From Cliona cf. orientalis (Eukaryota > Porifera > Demospongiae > Clionaida > Clionaidae): a stretch of 64,000 nt of DNA. This document shows positions 1,880 to 55,771 of this stretch, one piece after another; position 1 is the stretch's first letter; the number at the start of each line of letters is the position of its first letter. Made by a program: the position numbers and the translations under genes. Where the stretch lies: positions 7,060,428 to 7,124,427 of the forward strand of contig OZ005706.1 of assembly GCA_963930775.1 (NCBI GenBank), written 5' to 3'. The notes under the pieces were generated by a model. It made no database searches, was not told the DNA's origin, and was given only the letters and a program-made list of their open reading frames with translations.

Positions 1880-4800
1880 CTTGAAGATCTGAGTTGCCTG
1901 AACCCCTCTTCAATCGCTGAGATTGGCAAAGTCTACATGAGCTCTGCTACCATCAGCTGGAGGGACATCTTGCTTACCTGGCTAACTAGCCAATCACAGT
2001 TGCAGACCAACCACACTCAAGCACTCTTTGACAAATACATCCCGGATGTACTGGAATTTCTTCGTCCAATTTTGGCTACCAGTAGTGGTTTTGCTCAGAA
2101 GTCAGAGCCAGGCCATGAGTCTGTCGTGAGTTTGAGTGAGAGGGTGACTCGGAGTCAAGCAGAGCCACAGGAAGTGATGCTCTCTGAAGTACACCTCATC
2201 AAAACTTGCTGCCATATCTTGGAGGTATGTAAGTCGTATTATTTGCGATCCTCCTGGATACACTTAATTTTGATAATGTTCCCAGTATGCAGTAGCTACT
2301 GAAGCACTGGGGGGATGAAGCTATAATGTACATGTACATGTATATTATTGTGTATGCATTGTTTTATGCAGAGTCTTTTGGAGAATGAATCAGCTGATCA
2401 AGACAATAGCACCTCACCACCCTGCTTGGAGCATCATCTCATCTACTCCATCGTCTGGGCCTTCGGGGGCTTTCTCTCCCAACGAAACAAGATCACCTTT
2501 GACCTCTGGTGGCGGACCACCTTCAACCAATCAAATCCAGAGCTTTGCTTCCTGGAACCAGGGCTAGTGTGGGATTACTATACGAGATCTGGGGTACAAG
2601 GCTTTTTAGCTTGGAGAGAAAATCTTCCCAAGTACATCGTTACAAAGAAAGATAGCAGTGTTTCAGATTTTGTCCCAAATGTCCGTGCAGTAGCCGTACA
2701 GAGTCTCGTAGAGCGACTAATTAGTAGGGGCAAGTCTGTTTTACTCACGGGCCCTCATGGAAGTGGAAAAACCTCTCTACTGCAAGATCTGCTAAACGCT
2801 CGCCGCAACTCGAAAAATAATGATGTGGCATTGCTTCATATCTACACCAATCACCTTACGAGCGCCGAGGTGGTATGGGAACAGGTGTATGAGTGTTTGG
2901 AATGGGACTGGGGACGGAGGTACACTCCCAAGACTTGCAAGAAGTTGATCACCTTCATTGATGACCTACATAACACTGAGGTAGGTCAGAATCAGCTGAG
3001 TGTACATAATACTGCATTTGTACACTATGCCCTGATATTTTATACACATTCATGTATATTGAATCTGATTCCAAAGAGGCTATAGCTACTTGAAATGAGA
3101 AATTGGACCTTTCAAAATTATTTGTTTCCCTTAAAATTGTTTTGTACTAGACTCGTCCCCAGGCAACTCCCACGTGGGGACGAGGCTAGTTTTGTACTGC
3201 TCATTGTACATGTATACATGTGTATGTACCATCATTTTTTTCAAGGAATCTGAAATTAGTTCGTTTTTGCTCTATCCCACAGTGTTCAAGTGTATATGAG
3301 TTTGTGCGTCATCATCTCTCCAGTGGTAGCGTGTGTGACCCTCGGACGAACAAGTGGCACAGTATATCTGACATCACCTACGTTGTGACCTCTGATCCCA
3401 CCTCTCACATCAAGCTACGGCAGAGCTTCATGAAACACTTCGCTGTCATACACTGGCAACAGTATAGGTGAAACCGAGAGGGATTAAAATTAATACTATA
3501 TATAATATGTGGTAATTCACTCTTGATTAAAGGGTGTACCCACTCCAATTTTTGTATATAGTTAGATCAGAATTTTTGCCATTGATTTTAATCAGCACAG
3601 TAATTAAGGAAAATGAATATACCGGTACATGTAGGCCTTTGTTCATAAGCATTAGCAAAATTTTTTGTATTGGATTTTTATGACTACATGTATGTACATG
3701 TAATACTATGTACTTACCCCTAGTTTCCAATTCGCATACACACACACATGGCATGAAGTTCTGAAGAGCTGGTTGGTATATTCCACACGATGCTGAGCAA
3801 ATCTGTCGCCCAGACTCCACCCACTACTGGTGTTGACCACGTAGCCATCGCTGACGCTACGCTCCTCAACCTGGTAGAGACGGCAGTCCAGGTCCACAGG
3901 AAGCTTGGCTCCATGTTCCTGCCCACCCCAGAGAGGCTGCACTATGTCTTCTCAGTCAATAATATAGCAACTCTATTCAAGTGAGTGGCACATTCGCAAA
4001 TAAATTATGTATTGCAATCATGAGGGGTAAAGTGCATGATTTATTGGTCTATTATTGTCCATGGTCCCATGAAATATGCTATTGACAAAATTCTCACTCC
4101 TTGGCACTACAAAATGCTATTACTAAGCCACACCTTGCATCTGTGAACTAGAAATTTTATGGGAAAATTTTTTTTCACAGCTGTTATCTGACCTTTTGAA
4201 TCATCCACAATAATTAAAATTCTTTTTCTCTGTATAGGAAGCTGTGCAGTGTTGCTGTAACAGATGGCCATGAGCTGGTCCTGTCCTGGCAGAGAGAGAG
4301 CTGGTGGCTGTACAGTGGAGTGCTGAGCAGTTGTCTGGACAGGGAGAGGTACTGGGAGGCTGTCAGCCACGCCCTCAACAAATACTTCAATGAAGACCCT
4401 ATGGTACACACGTGAATATAACAGAATCAGTAATAGAAGATGAGCCTTTTCAATTTCATATACTGCCAATACCATATTATAGCAGGAAACTTTCGAGGGA
4501 GAAAGCCTTCACAAATTTCACGATTTTACAGCCACCCATGAAAATTTTCTCCACGAAATTTTAGGCATGCCACATCCATTTATGCGATCAGTTTCACATT
4601 CCGTGAAATTTTCTCTGCAAAATGCTCCCTTCCTACCGATCCGCGTGAAAGTTTTTCCCTCAAGAGTTTCCCGCTATACGGTTATTTGCAACAATGACCT
4701 AGCTAGCATCGTGCATAAAATTTAATTCTCTTCCAGCTTGTTCAATACCTTGATGAGAGCTCCTGCAGACTGCCAGTGAAGCAGCTGGATGAGTGGAGGG

Positions 4801-7800
4801 GGAGGCTGACCCACGAGTTGACCGAACACAACCTAAGCCACTCTCAAATACACATTAATCTTTACGATGTAAGAATAATGTCGATAAAAATTTAATCCTA
4901 GTGAAAGGATTCATATTATGGAATTTTAAGATTTACATGTATCTGTGTGACTTTGTTCGCTGTAGAGTACTGTTGAGGAGATCCATCACCTATGTCATGT
5001 GATCAACTCTCCCTTTGATCACGGTCACATGATCCTCCTAGGCCACACCCACCCAGAGCCCCTCCTCCAATTGGCCTCCCTCCACTGTGGCTACACGCTC
5101 GTCAAGCCTTCACAGTACTTCAGCCAATCACTTCTCACCTCTTCATCCCAATCGGGGATGTCCCTGGGATCGTACTCAATTAAGCAAATGAGAAGAGACC
5201 TACTCACAATATATACCATAGCTGGGGTGAAGAACGAGAAAATGGTGATCCTTTTGACCGATAAAGAGATTTTGGACGAGTCTTTTTTGACGTGTGTCTA
5301 TGAGTTCATCAAAGGAGGTGCTATATCGCCACTTTTCTCCAAGGAGGAGCAGGCCAGGATTGTGAATGCCGTGCGATCAGATATGAATCAAGCTGGGGTG
5401 GCATTCACAAGGCAATCTGGGTGGCAGTTCTTCATCAGGTAACATACAGTAATATAGCAACCAAACTGTACTAGAACTGCCCTAGAGCTTCACCCCCACA
5501 AGTATTCACATGCTTAAATTTCCTGCTATATCAGAGGCTAATCTGGGGGGGGGGGGGGGGGGGGGGGGGGGGGGGGGGGGGTGGATAGAGTGGCTAGCCA
5601 CCACCCTTCACTTTTTATGCAACGTATTATAGGATGTCCACCATTATTAACCAGCCACCCCCTTTGCACCAGTATGGTTTACTATGGGTAGCCACCCCAT
5701 CAGCCACCTTCCATGCAAATTTTCTGGATCAGCGCCTGTATATTATGGTACATGTAACTTTGCAAATTTCAAAAAATAATTCTATCTTCTTTATCTTCTG
5801 TTTCATGAAGACGTGTCCACAGCAATGTTCGACTGGTCCTATCCCTGTCCAGCCTGAGGCTGACTGTCCAATCAGGCTGCCACAGATGGAGGGATCTGTT
5901 TGGCAGTGTTCAGGTCTACTACCGTCTGCCGTGGGAGAGGAGAGAGCTAGTCAGTGTAGCCACACACCATCTCAGAGGTACAGACAAATAGCAGTATAAC
6001 TTGGACATTTTTATGTGAATCTATAAGGACAGCATGGTTAACTTGATAGAATCTGATCGGAAATTAATTTCGTCATTGAATTCTTTATTAGCCATCAAAA
6101 TATTGTTATACACTACAGTAGATACATGTATATTATGATCAATGAATATTGAATTTGTTGATAATACTGTCTTAAATGCGCTACTTTCAGAGTGTGATTT
6201 TCTTGGAGCTGGTCAGTTGGAGAGCCTGGCTCATTTGCTGGCCTCAGTCCACCTCCAGCTCAGACTCACAGAGGAAGTGTTCGCCAACAACACTGACTAT
6301 CACTACTATGTGGAGAGGTATATAATTATAACAAGTCAAAATTATTTCGCATACTTCAAGCATATTCTACTGAAATTTATATGTACAGTGTAGCATTATA
6401 CATTTCATTAATTTAATGATTCCATTTTTATGACAAAAAATATCTGATCATCAATAATGATGTTAGAAATTCCCCAGATACTTAATATATTAGCATAGAC
6501 ATTTTAACGCTCTAACTGTCATAATTATAATTACGTTATAATAGATTTGTGCATGAGTTGAAGGAGCTGCATTGCGAGAGCCAGTCCAAATGCTGCAAGC
6601 TCTCCTCAGCTCTGGCCTGCATCCAACAGGCCACCAACAAGATCACGACCCTGCAAGAGAGGAAAAAAAGAGAGAGCGTTGTTCTAGACGAAAAGTGCCA
6701 GGCCTGCAACAAACTACTGGTGCAGATTGGACAAGATACAGCAATCTCCCACCAACACAACAAGCTGGTCACTAAACAGAGAGAGAGAATTGTACATCTC
6801 AAGAAGGTAATTACAGCAGTAAACTGCTTGTTACTATCGGTTTTGGCTTAACTACTTAACTAATAATTTCATTGCTCCTACTATTAAATAATATGGTATA
6901 CCGTACTTAATCTAATACTACATACATGTATGGAAAAAAAATTATTTCAATTTTGAAGAACGCTCGATTTTCTGGTAAAGGTCGTCAATCGCTCATATAT
7001 ATATATATATATACACACGTTATGAGAATTCGTAAAATGCTAATTTCTTACGTTAGATTGGATCATATGTTGTATTCGATTAACTATGGTAGTTTGCAGT
7101 GGATGCTAGTTTATGAGATACATTTTTGTGTATCATGATTTGTATCATGACGTGTATGGAGGTGTATTATGACATGTATCGTAGATAGGCTGTGCGATAA
7201 CATTTATTGCACAATACTTCTCAGGTGATTCCAGACTATGAGCATGCCTACAGTGTTGCTCTGCGGGACAAAGAAGACCTCATCTCCAGCTTACAGAGCA
7301 CAGTGGCTAGCATGGACCACGAGAGCTTGTCTGAGCTAAGGGCTCTTCAGAGGGCCCCTGAGGAGGTGGAGGAGCTACTGGTCGCCGTCATTGTCATCAT
7401 GAAGGGACCCTCTGCTGATTTCTCATGGACCAAGGGAGCCAAAAGACTTATGGCTAATCTGGACAGGTACACATACATACATGTACATACATGTATATAA
7501 ACTTAAAAAAATTTTTACACGTATTGAACATGGAATCATCTTTGTCATTATTGACTATGAGCACCCTCGATCAGTGATTTGCACTACTCTAGTAGATTAT
7601 GTTTCTTCATAATTATGTTGTCTTTAACAACCACTCGAAGTTGGGAGTAGGTGCAAAAGGTGTTTCAGAATATTTAGAAACGTCACATTAATTTTTGAAG
7701 ATTCCATTGAGAGTATCATTTTTTTCCCAATTTCATAAAACATTGTTTCTATAGGTTCAGTGAGCTTCTATTAGAGTTCAGCAGCTCCGAAGACAACTCC

Positions 7801-55612: not shown

Positions 55613-55713
55613 TATTTATAGGCATGCACATTGACTAGGACACAGCCTGCATGGTACATTAATTAGACAAGGCTAGGTATCCATTGGCTAATTTTGACTG
55701 TCATGCACAGGTT

Positions 55714-55771
55714 TAGTCTCGTAGCCCAGCCCCCTTAAACGCACGCGAAAAGGGGCTGGGTCACGAGACTA
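55714..55771. repeat. 58 bp TAGTCTCG hairpin with 9 bp direct repeats
   Basis: Arms TAGTCTCGTAGCCCAGCCCC and GGGGCTGGGTCACGAGACTA. Flanks GCACAGGTT (55705-55713) and GCACGGGTT (55772-55780) match at 8 of 9. Confidence 0.82.

Follow-up and report, generated by a model that had tools for sequence, protein, structure and literature searches.

Very short hairpin insertions in the genome of Cliona cf. orientalis as probable solo ends of a DNA transposon family with 9-bp target duplications

The short hairpins described here, from the genome of the sponge Cliona cf. orientalis, on balance probably belong to a family of DNA transposons with terminal inverted repeats (TIRs) which duplicates 9 bp of its target (TSD), most of the micro-hairpins being collapsed solo ends left after the interior of a longer element was lost. 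The hairpins are about 26 to 65 letters long and their ends are common to longer elements, one of which is a coding, full-length member. The analysis covered a stretch of 64,000 nucleotides (the window) together with 251 kb fetched from among the first 100 matches given for each pattern searched.

All six insertions of the initial annotation are present in the window exactly as given, with the direct repeats as stated (Table 1). The right end is CTA in five of them, the exception being ATATA at 32125, where a few additional bases separate the right end from the TSD; the insertion at 48481 begins with TAGTCTGG instead of CTCG and its arms are perfect over 22 bp. At 29919 the right arm is almost gone, about 6–7 nt of the right end being left on direct reading. 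The initial 46 nt of the hairpin at 55714 can be aligned with a terminus of L017, a member of 638 bp. The 363-bp element belongs to a dispersed family whose members are about 330 bp long; a first look found 475 candidates, of which 40 were scored, so that here a single internal sequence does occur in many copies at different sites. The composite hairpin, joined at a common GCCCCTT on direct reading, has no clear 9-bp TSD, with mismatches at 8 of the 9 positions.

Table 1. Hairpins and related insertions in the window
Feature	Length (bp)	Position	With direct repeat	Strand	Remarks
Micro-hairpin	41	3148-3188	3139..3197	.	Exact 9-bp TSD GTTTTGTAC on either side
Micro-hairpin	29	29919-29947	29909..29957	.	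10-bp repeat GGCCCAAATC
Degenerate member	48	32125-32172	32116..32181	.	TSD CAGTTGTAC
MITE	363	32565-32927	32556..32936	+	TSD ATCCCAATC
Composite hairpin	83	36931..37013		.	Arms of one subfamily enclosing part of a 55714-type hairpin
Micro-hairpin	54	48481-48534	48472..48543	.	TSD CCAGTGTAC
Micro-hairpin	58	55714-55771	55705..55780	.	TSD GCACAGGTT/GCACGGGTT, one mismatch

The window contains 20 copies of the end motif TAGNCTCG, where shuffles predict 3.3. Genome-wide, the strict pattern TAGNCTCGN{10,40}CGAGNCTA gave 836 matches, spanning 26–56 bp, against 13 for the reversed pattern; a further strict search gave 71 hairpins of 16–28 bp, which overlap the 836 at 26–28 bp. Among 15 loci fetched from the strict search, 12 have a 9-bp repeat at up to 2 mismatches (exact in 9) and the other three (L011, L021 and L023) are without one. 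Across 315 kb (the window and L001–L050), a scan for end-matched pairs that added a TIR match and a tighter end score to a looser one found the 9-bp duplication in 22 of 62 pairs; shifting the comparison by 1–7 bases left 0, 0, 0, 0, 1, 0 and 1 pairs. The looser scan itself, run on 164 kb, was judged too loose to count, since it found 16 TSD-bearing pairs against 3–9 at shifted positions, 9 with the reversed motif and 2–20 with ten scrambled motifs. That the duplication is 9 bp long is apparent from 26 elements, chosen because they have the repeat, in which identity is 24–26/26 at positions 1–9 and only 7/26 and 6/26 immediately beyond. When the window was scanned generically, for short inverted repeats of any sequence flanked by any repeated 9-mer, 8 were found (shuffle mean 0.9, largest 4). 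Only 3 of these belong to the TAG...CTA family, and it is therefore the ends that single the family out. Of 40 exact ends in 239 kb, 6 have a partner no more than 70 bp away and 11 have one within 700 bp, against 13 ends and no pairs for the reversed motif; since partners are often degenerate, this count of solo versus paired ends does not decide the matter.

The hairpin at 48481 is inserted in a dispersed repeat. When the genome was searched with its 100-bp flanks, 32 of the 34 paired copies elsewhere among the 40 scored loci (the self-match of the hairpin being excluded) were empty sites with a single copy of the 9 bp. The remaining two were truncated, one right-half match was without a left partner, and four more full-span matches were found elsewhere at 70–73% identity. 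Comparison of flanks with the fetched loci and the window gave no clear empty site; it was the genome-wide flank search that provided them, as paralogous repeat copies inside the same genome. Together with the excess of duplications over the shifted control, these empty sites bear out the mobile-element origin, with a 9-bp target duplication, proposed for the hairpins.

A stem-loop is present at all 16 termini of the eight long members that were read, with 8–10 of 10 bases paired, 5 of the 16 being individually equalled by 4–15% of shuffles. Among 34 convergent TIR pairs from two subfamilies there are two size classes: 17 pairs lie at 42–65 bp, a class whose lower edge was fixed by the 20–22 nt arms used in the search, one at 111 bp and 16 at 304 bp or more. 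The gap above 65 bp does contain some sizes: L027 has a member of 73 bp whose TSD is exact, and there are also long members of 270 and 273 bp. Each long-element end can be written a-b-loop-b', where a stands for TAGNCTCG extended by 3 nt, and b and b' form the stem. In the scheme that we favour, a long element would insert normally and generate the 9-bp duplication; its interior would be lost later, either through a deletion that joins the b segment of one end to its match in the other (or b' to b') or through faulty repair following excision. What then stays between the duplications made at insertion would be a palindrome a-b-loop-b'-a' no longer than about 65 bp, comparable to a solo LTR, and further loop loss and microhomology joins may give the shorter forms. 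Alignment to termini took 19 of 23 micro-hairpins, L011, L021, L023 and 36931 being excluded as they have no TSD. Six of the 19 align over at least 30 nt, reaching into or beyond the loop. The other 13 match only in the outer 17–25 nt, in a comparison made without shuffle control, so that, as judged from these alignments, an origin as solo ends is shown for a minority of micro-hairpins. The idea that the hairpins are extreme deletion derivatives is supported in kind. Their ends, however, fall in several subfamilies, and the 363-bp element, a member of the approximately 330-bp MITE family, does not appear to be the parent of most of them.

The full-length member, L050, is 6311 bp long and has the same TIR as the hairpins, perfect over 59 bp, and an exact 9-bp TSD, TGAGAGACC. 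It encodes a DUF6589 protein, whose gene is interrupted by one in-frame stop and which contains GDNVD and GDQLT stretches, and a convergent helicase assigned to the RecQ family by PDB and NCBIfam (Pfam: DUF6589 3.5e-19, Helicase_C 1.9e-15, DEAD 1.3e-8). The two genes recur together: they lie tail-to-tail at most 4 kb apart at 70 of 102 scored DUF6589 loci, in another arrangement at none, and 32 loci have no RecQ partner. Random shifts gave a mean of 0.7 tail-to-tail pairs and at most 5 in 1000 trials. Second pieces of loci, which made up 20 among 122 DUF6589 rows and 4 among 100 RecQ rows, were excluded from this count. Among three long TIR pairs (6269, 6311 and 7353 bp) all have a RecQ match and two a DUF6589 match. 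The second pair with both is C1:21072983-21080335, and the full arrangement, a convergent DUF6589 and RecQ gene set inside TIRs with a 9-bp TSD, was read in L050 alone. Neither gene was among the scored matches inside a 4627-bp and a 16-kb TIR pair. We infer that DUF6589 is the transposase of the family, perhaps a DDE-type enzyme. No known transposase domain, P transposase included, was matched by Pfam in ten reading-frame pieces of L050, which cover part of its exons. The DUF6589 stretch gave no match to viral contigs (six peptides), PDB sequences or NCBIfam (three pieces from the DUF6589 side), a single-sequence structure prediction of its C-terminal exon had a mean pLDDT of 35, too low for use, and no paper in the literature searched names the domain.

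In many ways the hairpins resemble MITEs: they are non-coding and dispersed, with TIRs and a TSD of constant length, and are related to a longer coding element, L050, with the same TIR and TSD length. MITEs are usually about 100–800 bp, whereas many of the hairpins are just 26–65 bp, in essence a pair of arms around a loop, and their junctions vary. The presence of TIRs and a TSD excludes Helitrons, which have neither. Mutator/MULE elements such as MuDR share the TIRs and have TSDs of 8–11 bp, mostly 9 bp. Of the Mutator affiliation first suggested, however, the duplication length alone fits: the ten L050 pieces scanned contained no MULE domain in Pfam at E up to 1, and membership is therefore not supported. 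The genome has 58 MULE matches, of which 12 loci, and from the further 46 those in L046–L049, were read. In none of the 12 is the MULE match enclosed within 1.5 kb by a TAGNCTSG pair, and in L045 the one such pair lies upstream of the match. The 5.04-kb MULE of L046/L047 was rejected as a parent, since its ends differ (GGGTTATTGC... versus TAGNCTCG of the hairpin family); no ends were recognised for the MULEs of L048/L049. A RecQ helicase is also carried by KolobokH and by Kolobok-1_CCri, on the opposite strand in the latter, according to PMC9587614. The target duplication given there for Kolobok is TTAA, unlike the 9-bp TSDs without TTAA found here, where moreover no known transposase domain was matched in Pfam. 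The same paper describes solo LTDRs of KolobokP as a short remnant of a single terminal unit between intact TSDs. The micro-hairpins would be comparable remnants, as are solo LTRs, and differ in that the repeated units are stem-loops within inverted ends rather than long direct terminal repeats.

Several other origins can be weighed against collapsed solo ends. The most plausible, which we regard as possible and somewhat doubtful, is that the transposase acts in trans on the 26–65 bp hairpins and moves them directly, perhaps in the form of extruded cruciforms or hairpins, because a duplex of this length seems too rigid for its ends to be paired in the usual way. The TSDs and empty sites agree with direct insertion, as does the 42–65 bp size class, in one subfamily of which 51 bp recurs three times and 54 bp five times. 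One 27-bp hairpin has 9 copies on 7 contigs at up to 1 mismatch, three with the same changed base, and the 54-mer of 48481 has 5 copies at up to 3 mismatches, likewise spread over several contigs. The other 54-mer sites were absent from the 40 scored loci of the flank search, so their surroundings probably differ from those of the window copy. These copies could be moved copies, and some multi-copy micro-hairpins may well be mobile in their own right. Independent collapse within one subfamily could, however, also produce identical 54-mers, and only about 6–9 nt of one end are left in 29919, L013 and L022 on direct reading. No class dominates either, 50 listed hairpins falling into 46 classes with four matching pairs; this is compatible with a few copies each genome-wide, although 50 of 836, from a single 10-Mb stretch, are not enough to establish them as single-copy.

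Rather improbable, in our estimate, are excision footprints, in which the transposase would cut well inside the ends, as does that of the P element, and the two stubs would be joined by end joining. P transposase leaves 17-nt extensions according to PMC10983969, and two end stubs between TSDs would have the same look as the hairpins, in which both arms are retained, the junctions vary and the TSD is intact; L014 appears on direct reading to hold copied filler. Yet 55714, L015 and L016:1691-1748 still have most of a terminus loop, more than two short stubs would provide. In outcome this explanation overlaps with solo ends, and its probability is not exclusive. The TSD of P elements is 8 bp. The self-templating hairpin system of the initial annotation, taken as snap-back copying in which the terminal stem primes synthesis on the outer arm and makes a perfect hairpin from one end, found no direct support and seems very improbable. 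The stem-loop b/b' is located just where needed and the arms of some hairpins (48481, L020) are perfectly complementary, but 125 matches to arms of the 48481 kind, with no more than 2 mismatches, make this symmetry a feature of the subfamily. The direct 9-bp duplications that flank the hairpins would also go unexplained. Moreover, CTA at positions 9–11 on one side is accompanied by CGC on the other in 4/4 such hairpins among the 50 listed, a small sample in which two are the same 27-mer and another, L021, lacks the 9-bp repeat; these carry two different ends, whereas snap-back from a single end would copy that end alone. Inverted repeats and flanking 9-mers that arose by chance have virtually no probability left, being refuted by the reversed-pattern and shifted controls and the 32 empty sites.

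If most micro-hairpins are indeed solo ends, they suggest a DNA-transposon analogue of solo LTRs, in which terminal hairpins outlast the interior. Such scars, 836 by the strict pattern, could easily be overlooked in repeat annotation or taken for microinversions, regulatory palindromes or structured RNAs. For DUF6589, an unstudied domain scored at about a hundred loci in one genome, a role in a DNA transposon that carries a helicase becomes probable. A bolder proposal, which we consider unlikely, is that DUF6589 and RecQ define an undescribed transposon superfamily with a 9-bp TSD and stem-loop ends, whose transposase acts on hairpin or cruciform ends with help from the helicase and for which the 26–54 bp hairpins are mobile. 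Should some micro-hairpins move alone, they would rank with the smallest mobile elements known to us and would provide a test of how a transposase can pair ends when the duplex between them is too short and stiff to bring them together.

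All six insertions of the TAG...CTA family that the initial annotation placed in the window were borne out by a sequence check, in coordinates and in direct repeats. TAGNCTCG occurs 20 times in the window compared to 3.3 expected, a six-fold excess. A genome-wide search for end-paired hairpins, of the kind proposed in that annotation, covered 216.8 Mb in 149 contigs and returned 836 matches to TAGNCTCGN{10,40}CGAGNCTA; the same pattern reversed gave 13. Shorter hairpins (16–28 bp) number 71 against 2 in the control. In a list of 50 of these, 40 are of 22–28 bp and 10 of 16–21 bp; some of the very shortest may be chance matches.

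The duplication is 9 bp long. Among 62 end-matched pairs in the window and the 50 fetched loci (315 kb), 22 carry a 9-bp direct repeat with at most two mismatches (17 exact), while offsetting the comparison by 1–7 bases leaves 0 or 1. The repeat, at the same stringency, was found in 12 of the 15 strict-search loci fetched (exact in 9) and is absent from the other three (L011, L021 and L023). In 26 elements selected for having it, identity is 24–26 of 26 at each of positions 1–9 and only 7 and 6 of 26 just outside. These 26 have no obvious target consensus apart from position 9, where C is mildly favoured (13 elements).

Insertion is demonstrated by empty sites, which the initial annotation had asked for in other individuals and which occur here as repeat copies elsewhere in the genome. 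The 54-bp hairpin at 48481-48534 lies inside a dispersed repeat. With 100 bp of flank from each side as query (40 of 172 candidates scored), both flanks were found on one strand at 34 other loci. At 32 of these the flank matches overlap exactly as expected for a single 9-bp target without the hairpin; at the other two they are incomplete.

The 363-bp insertion is a member of a dispersed MITE family: 34 of 40 scored matches, the window copy included, run the full or almost full length of the query (475 candidates). One 20-bp end has 226 copies in the genome, and convergent pairs among the first 100 include spans of 6269, 6311 and 7353 bp. The 6311-bp element (L050) has TGAGAGACC at both sides as target site duplication (TSD) and terminal inverted repeats (TIRs) of 59 perfect bp within a 71-bp stretch at 94%. 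One strand encodes a DUF6589 protein in several exons, whose last two pieces score 1.1e-4 (below cut-off) and 3.5e-19 in Pfam and are separated by one in-frame stop. The opposite strand encodes a RecQ-type helicase (Helicase_C 1.9e-15, DEAD 1.3e-8; best PDB relative the Bloom helicase, 1e-22). No MULE domain was matched in ten scanned pieces of L050, which cover part of the exons.

In eight long elements of 270–6311 bp (seven with an in-register 9-bp TSD at no more than two mismatches, L006 without), end positions 12–22 pair with a segment 19–56 nt further inward, with 8–10 of 10 bases paired at all 16 ends. Typical stem letters are CCAGRCCCY...RGGGYCTGG, followed by TGA, TAA or TAC at 12 ends. 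Taken singly, five ends are equalled by 4–15% of shuffles; support comes instead from the same place and similar letters at all 16. An element end thus reads a-b-loop-b', an outer arm followed by a stem-loop, and a micro-hairpin with a complete loop reads a-b-loop-b'-a', closing with the opposite arm. When 19 of the 23 available micro-hairpins were aligned with long-element ends, without shuffle control, six matched over at least 30 nt (55714, L010, L015, two in L016, and L019). The other 13 have only the outer 17–25 nt in common, perhaps because long members of few subfamilies were sampled.

Of the possible origins of the hairpins, we rank collapse of long elements in place first and hold it to be somewhat probable. 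Because the element carries its b segments as direct repeats, one at each end, a deletion between them would yield the observed product, retaining both outermost ends and the duplication. The 34 convergent pairs from two subfamilies, counted over the 100 copies listed first out of 226 and out of 125 respectively, comprise 17 of 42–65 bp, one of 111 bp and 16 of at least 304 bp, in a count where search arms of 20–22 nt could not reveal shorter hairpins. A gap of this kind would be expected to close under random decay of the interior, but to stay open if everything between two terminal stem-loops were lost. Elsewhere the interval above 65 bp does have occupants, of 73 (L027), 270 (L002) and 273 bp (L029). 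One composite, without a clear TSD, looks on direct reading like a join of this type, between two subfamilies at a shared GCCCCTT. Footprints left by a transposase cutting inside the ends would overlap with in-place collapse.

That the micro-hairpins move by themselves ranks second, a possible but rather doubtful reading. It is favoured by a 27-mer with nine copies at no more than one mismatch on seven contigs, one changed base being common to three, and by the window 54-mer with five copies at up to three mismatches on four contigs. However, one subfamily could yield identical 54-mers independently, which is harder to invoke for the 27-mer, and some hairpins retain just 6–9 nt of one end. A sample of 50 of the 836, drawn entirely from the initial 10.1 Mb of C1, forms 46 classes at two mismatches. 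The four matching pairs, one 5 kb apart and perhaps a local duplication, indicate no more than the absence of a dominant class: scaling 4 of 1225 possible pairs by 835 would fit about two or three additional copies of each hairpin across the genome. Snap-back copying of one end is the least likely origin, because hairpins with distinguishable ends hold one left and one right end (all 4 cases, among which one 27-mer occurs twice). The self-templating hairpin suggested initially received no direct support.

Other features were recorded alongside (see table). The 5.04-kb element is a recently active Mutator element, and the two regions with similar frames form, judged by eye, a local duplication with which nearby insertions might be dated.

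Coordinates of L050, the composite and neighbouring or side features
Feature	Location	Observation
L050, full-length element	C1:27808780-27815140	6311-bp element
Composite	window 36931-37013	
5.04-kb element around MULE match	C2:11397500-11406500 (L046); C8:9705500-9714500 (L047)	99.4% identical; TIR GGGTTATTGCATAAGG; different exact 9-bp duplications at its two chromosomes
Two overlapping frames	window 45033-46488	resemble THAP-type N-terminus and DDE (Harbinger-like) transposase, by eye
Similar reading frames	window 33493-36113; 59161-62305	some of ankyrin-repeat type, by eye
Dispersed repeat rich in GGGCGTGG	window 27480-29700; 41995-43567; 47690-48177; 56178-57209	several copies, both orientations; reading frames common to copies
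Two-subfamily ends, same orientation	C1:28147943; C1:29093343; C1:34987904; C1:36708685; C1:37137789; C2:8890735	422-856 bp apart; possible family of composite or nested elements
Copies of repeat around 48481	C17:7146274; C17:7154104; C17:7162535; C6:2757875	match whole query at 70-73% identity, altered lengths; possibly other insertions at same place
Degenerate tandem array	window 9203-9670	units roughly 60-80 bp (CTAATTTTACCAATTTTACC...)

RecQ in DNA transposons is already known from KolobokH (PMC9587614). In the open-licence PubMed Central literature, no paper was found that names DUF6589 or that mentions together a RecQ helicase, an accessory role, a transposase and a 9-bp DNA transposon; the main text of PMC12730594 mentions neither RecQ nor DUF6589. 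The family may already be catalogued in Repbase or Dfam under another name.

DUF6589 and RecQ form a module. A RecQ match (96 of 100 used) lies tail-to-tail within 4 kb at 70 of 102 DUF6589 loci (102 of 338 candidates scored; 20 of 122 matches, being second pieces of loci, left out); 32 are without RecQ and none of the 102 shows any other arrangement. Randomly shifted positions gave a mean of 0.7 pairs and a maximum of 5 in 1000 trials. The 7353-bp TIR pair encloses both genes. Within the 6269-bp pair the scored matches include the helicase but not DUF6589, and within the 4627-bp and 16-kb pairs they include neither. Apart from L050 itself, helicases at the 70 convergent loci are 28–53% identical to that of L050. 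These loci form a varied clade of transposons in a single genome.
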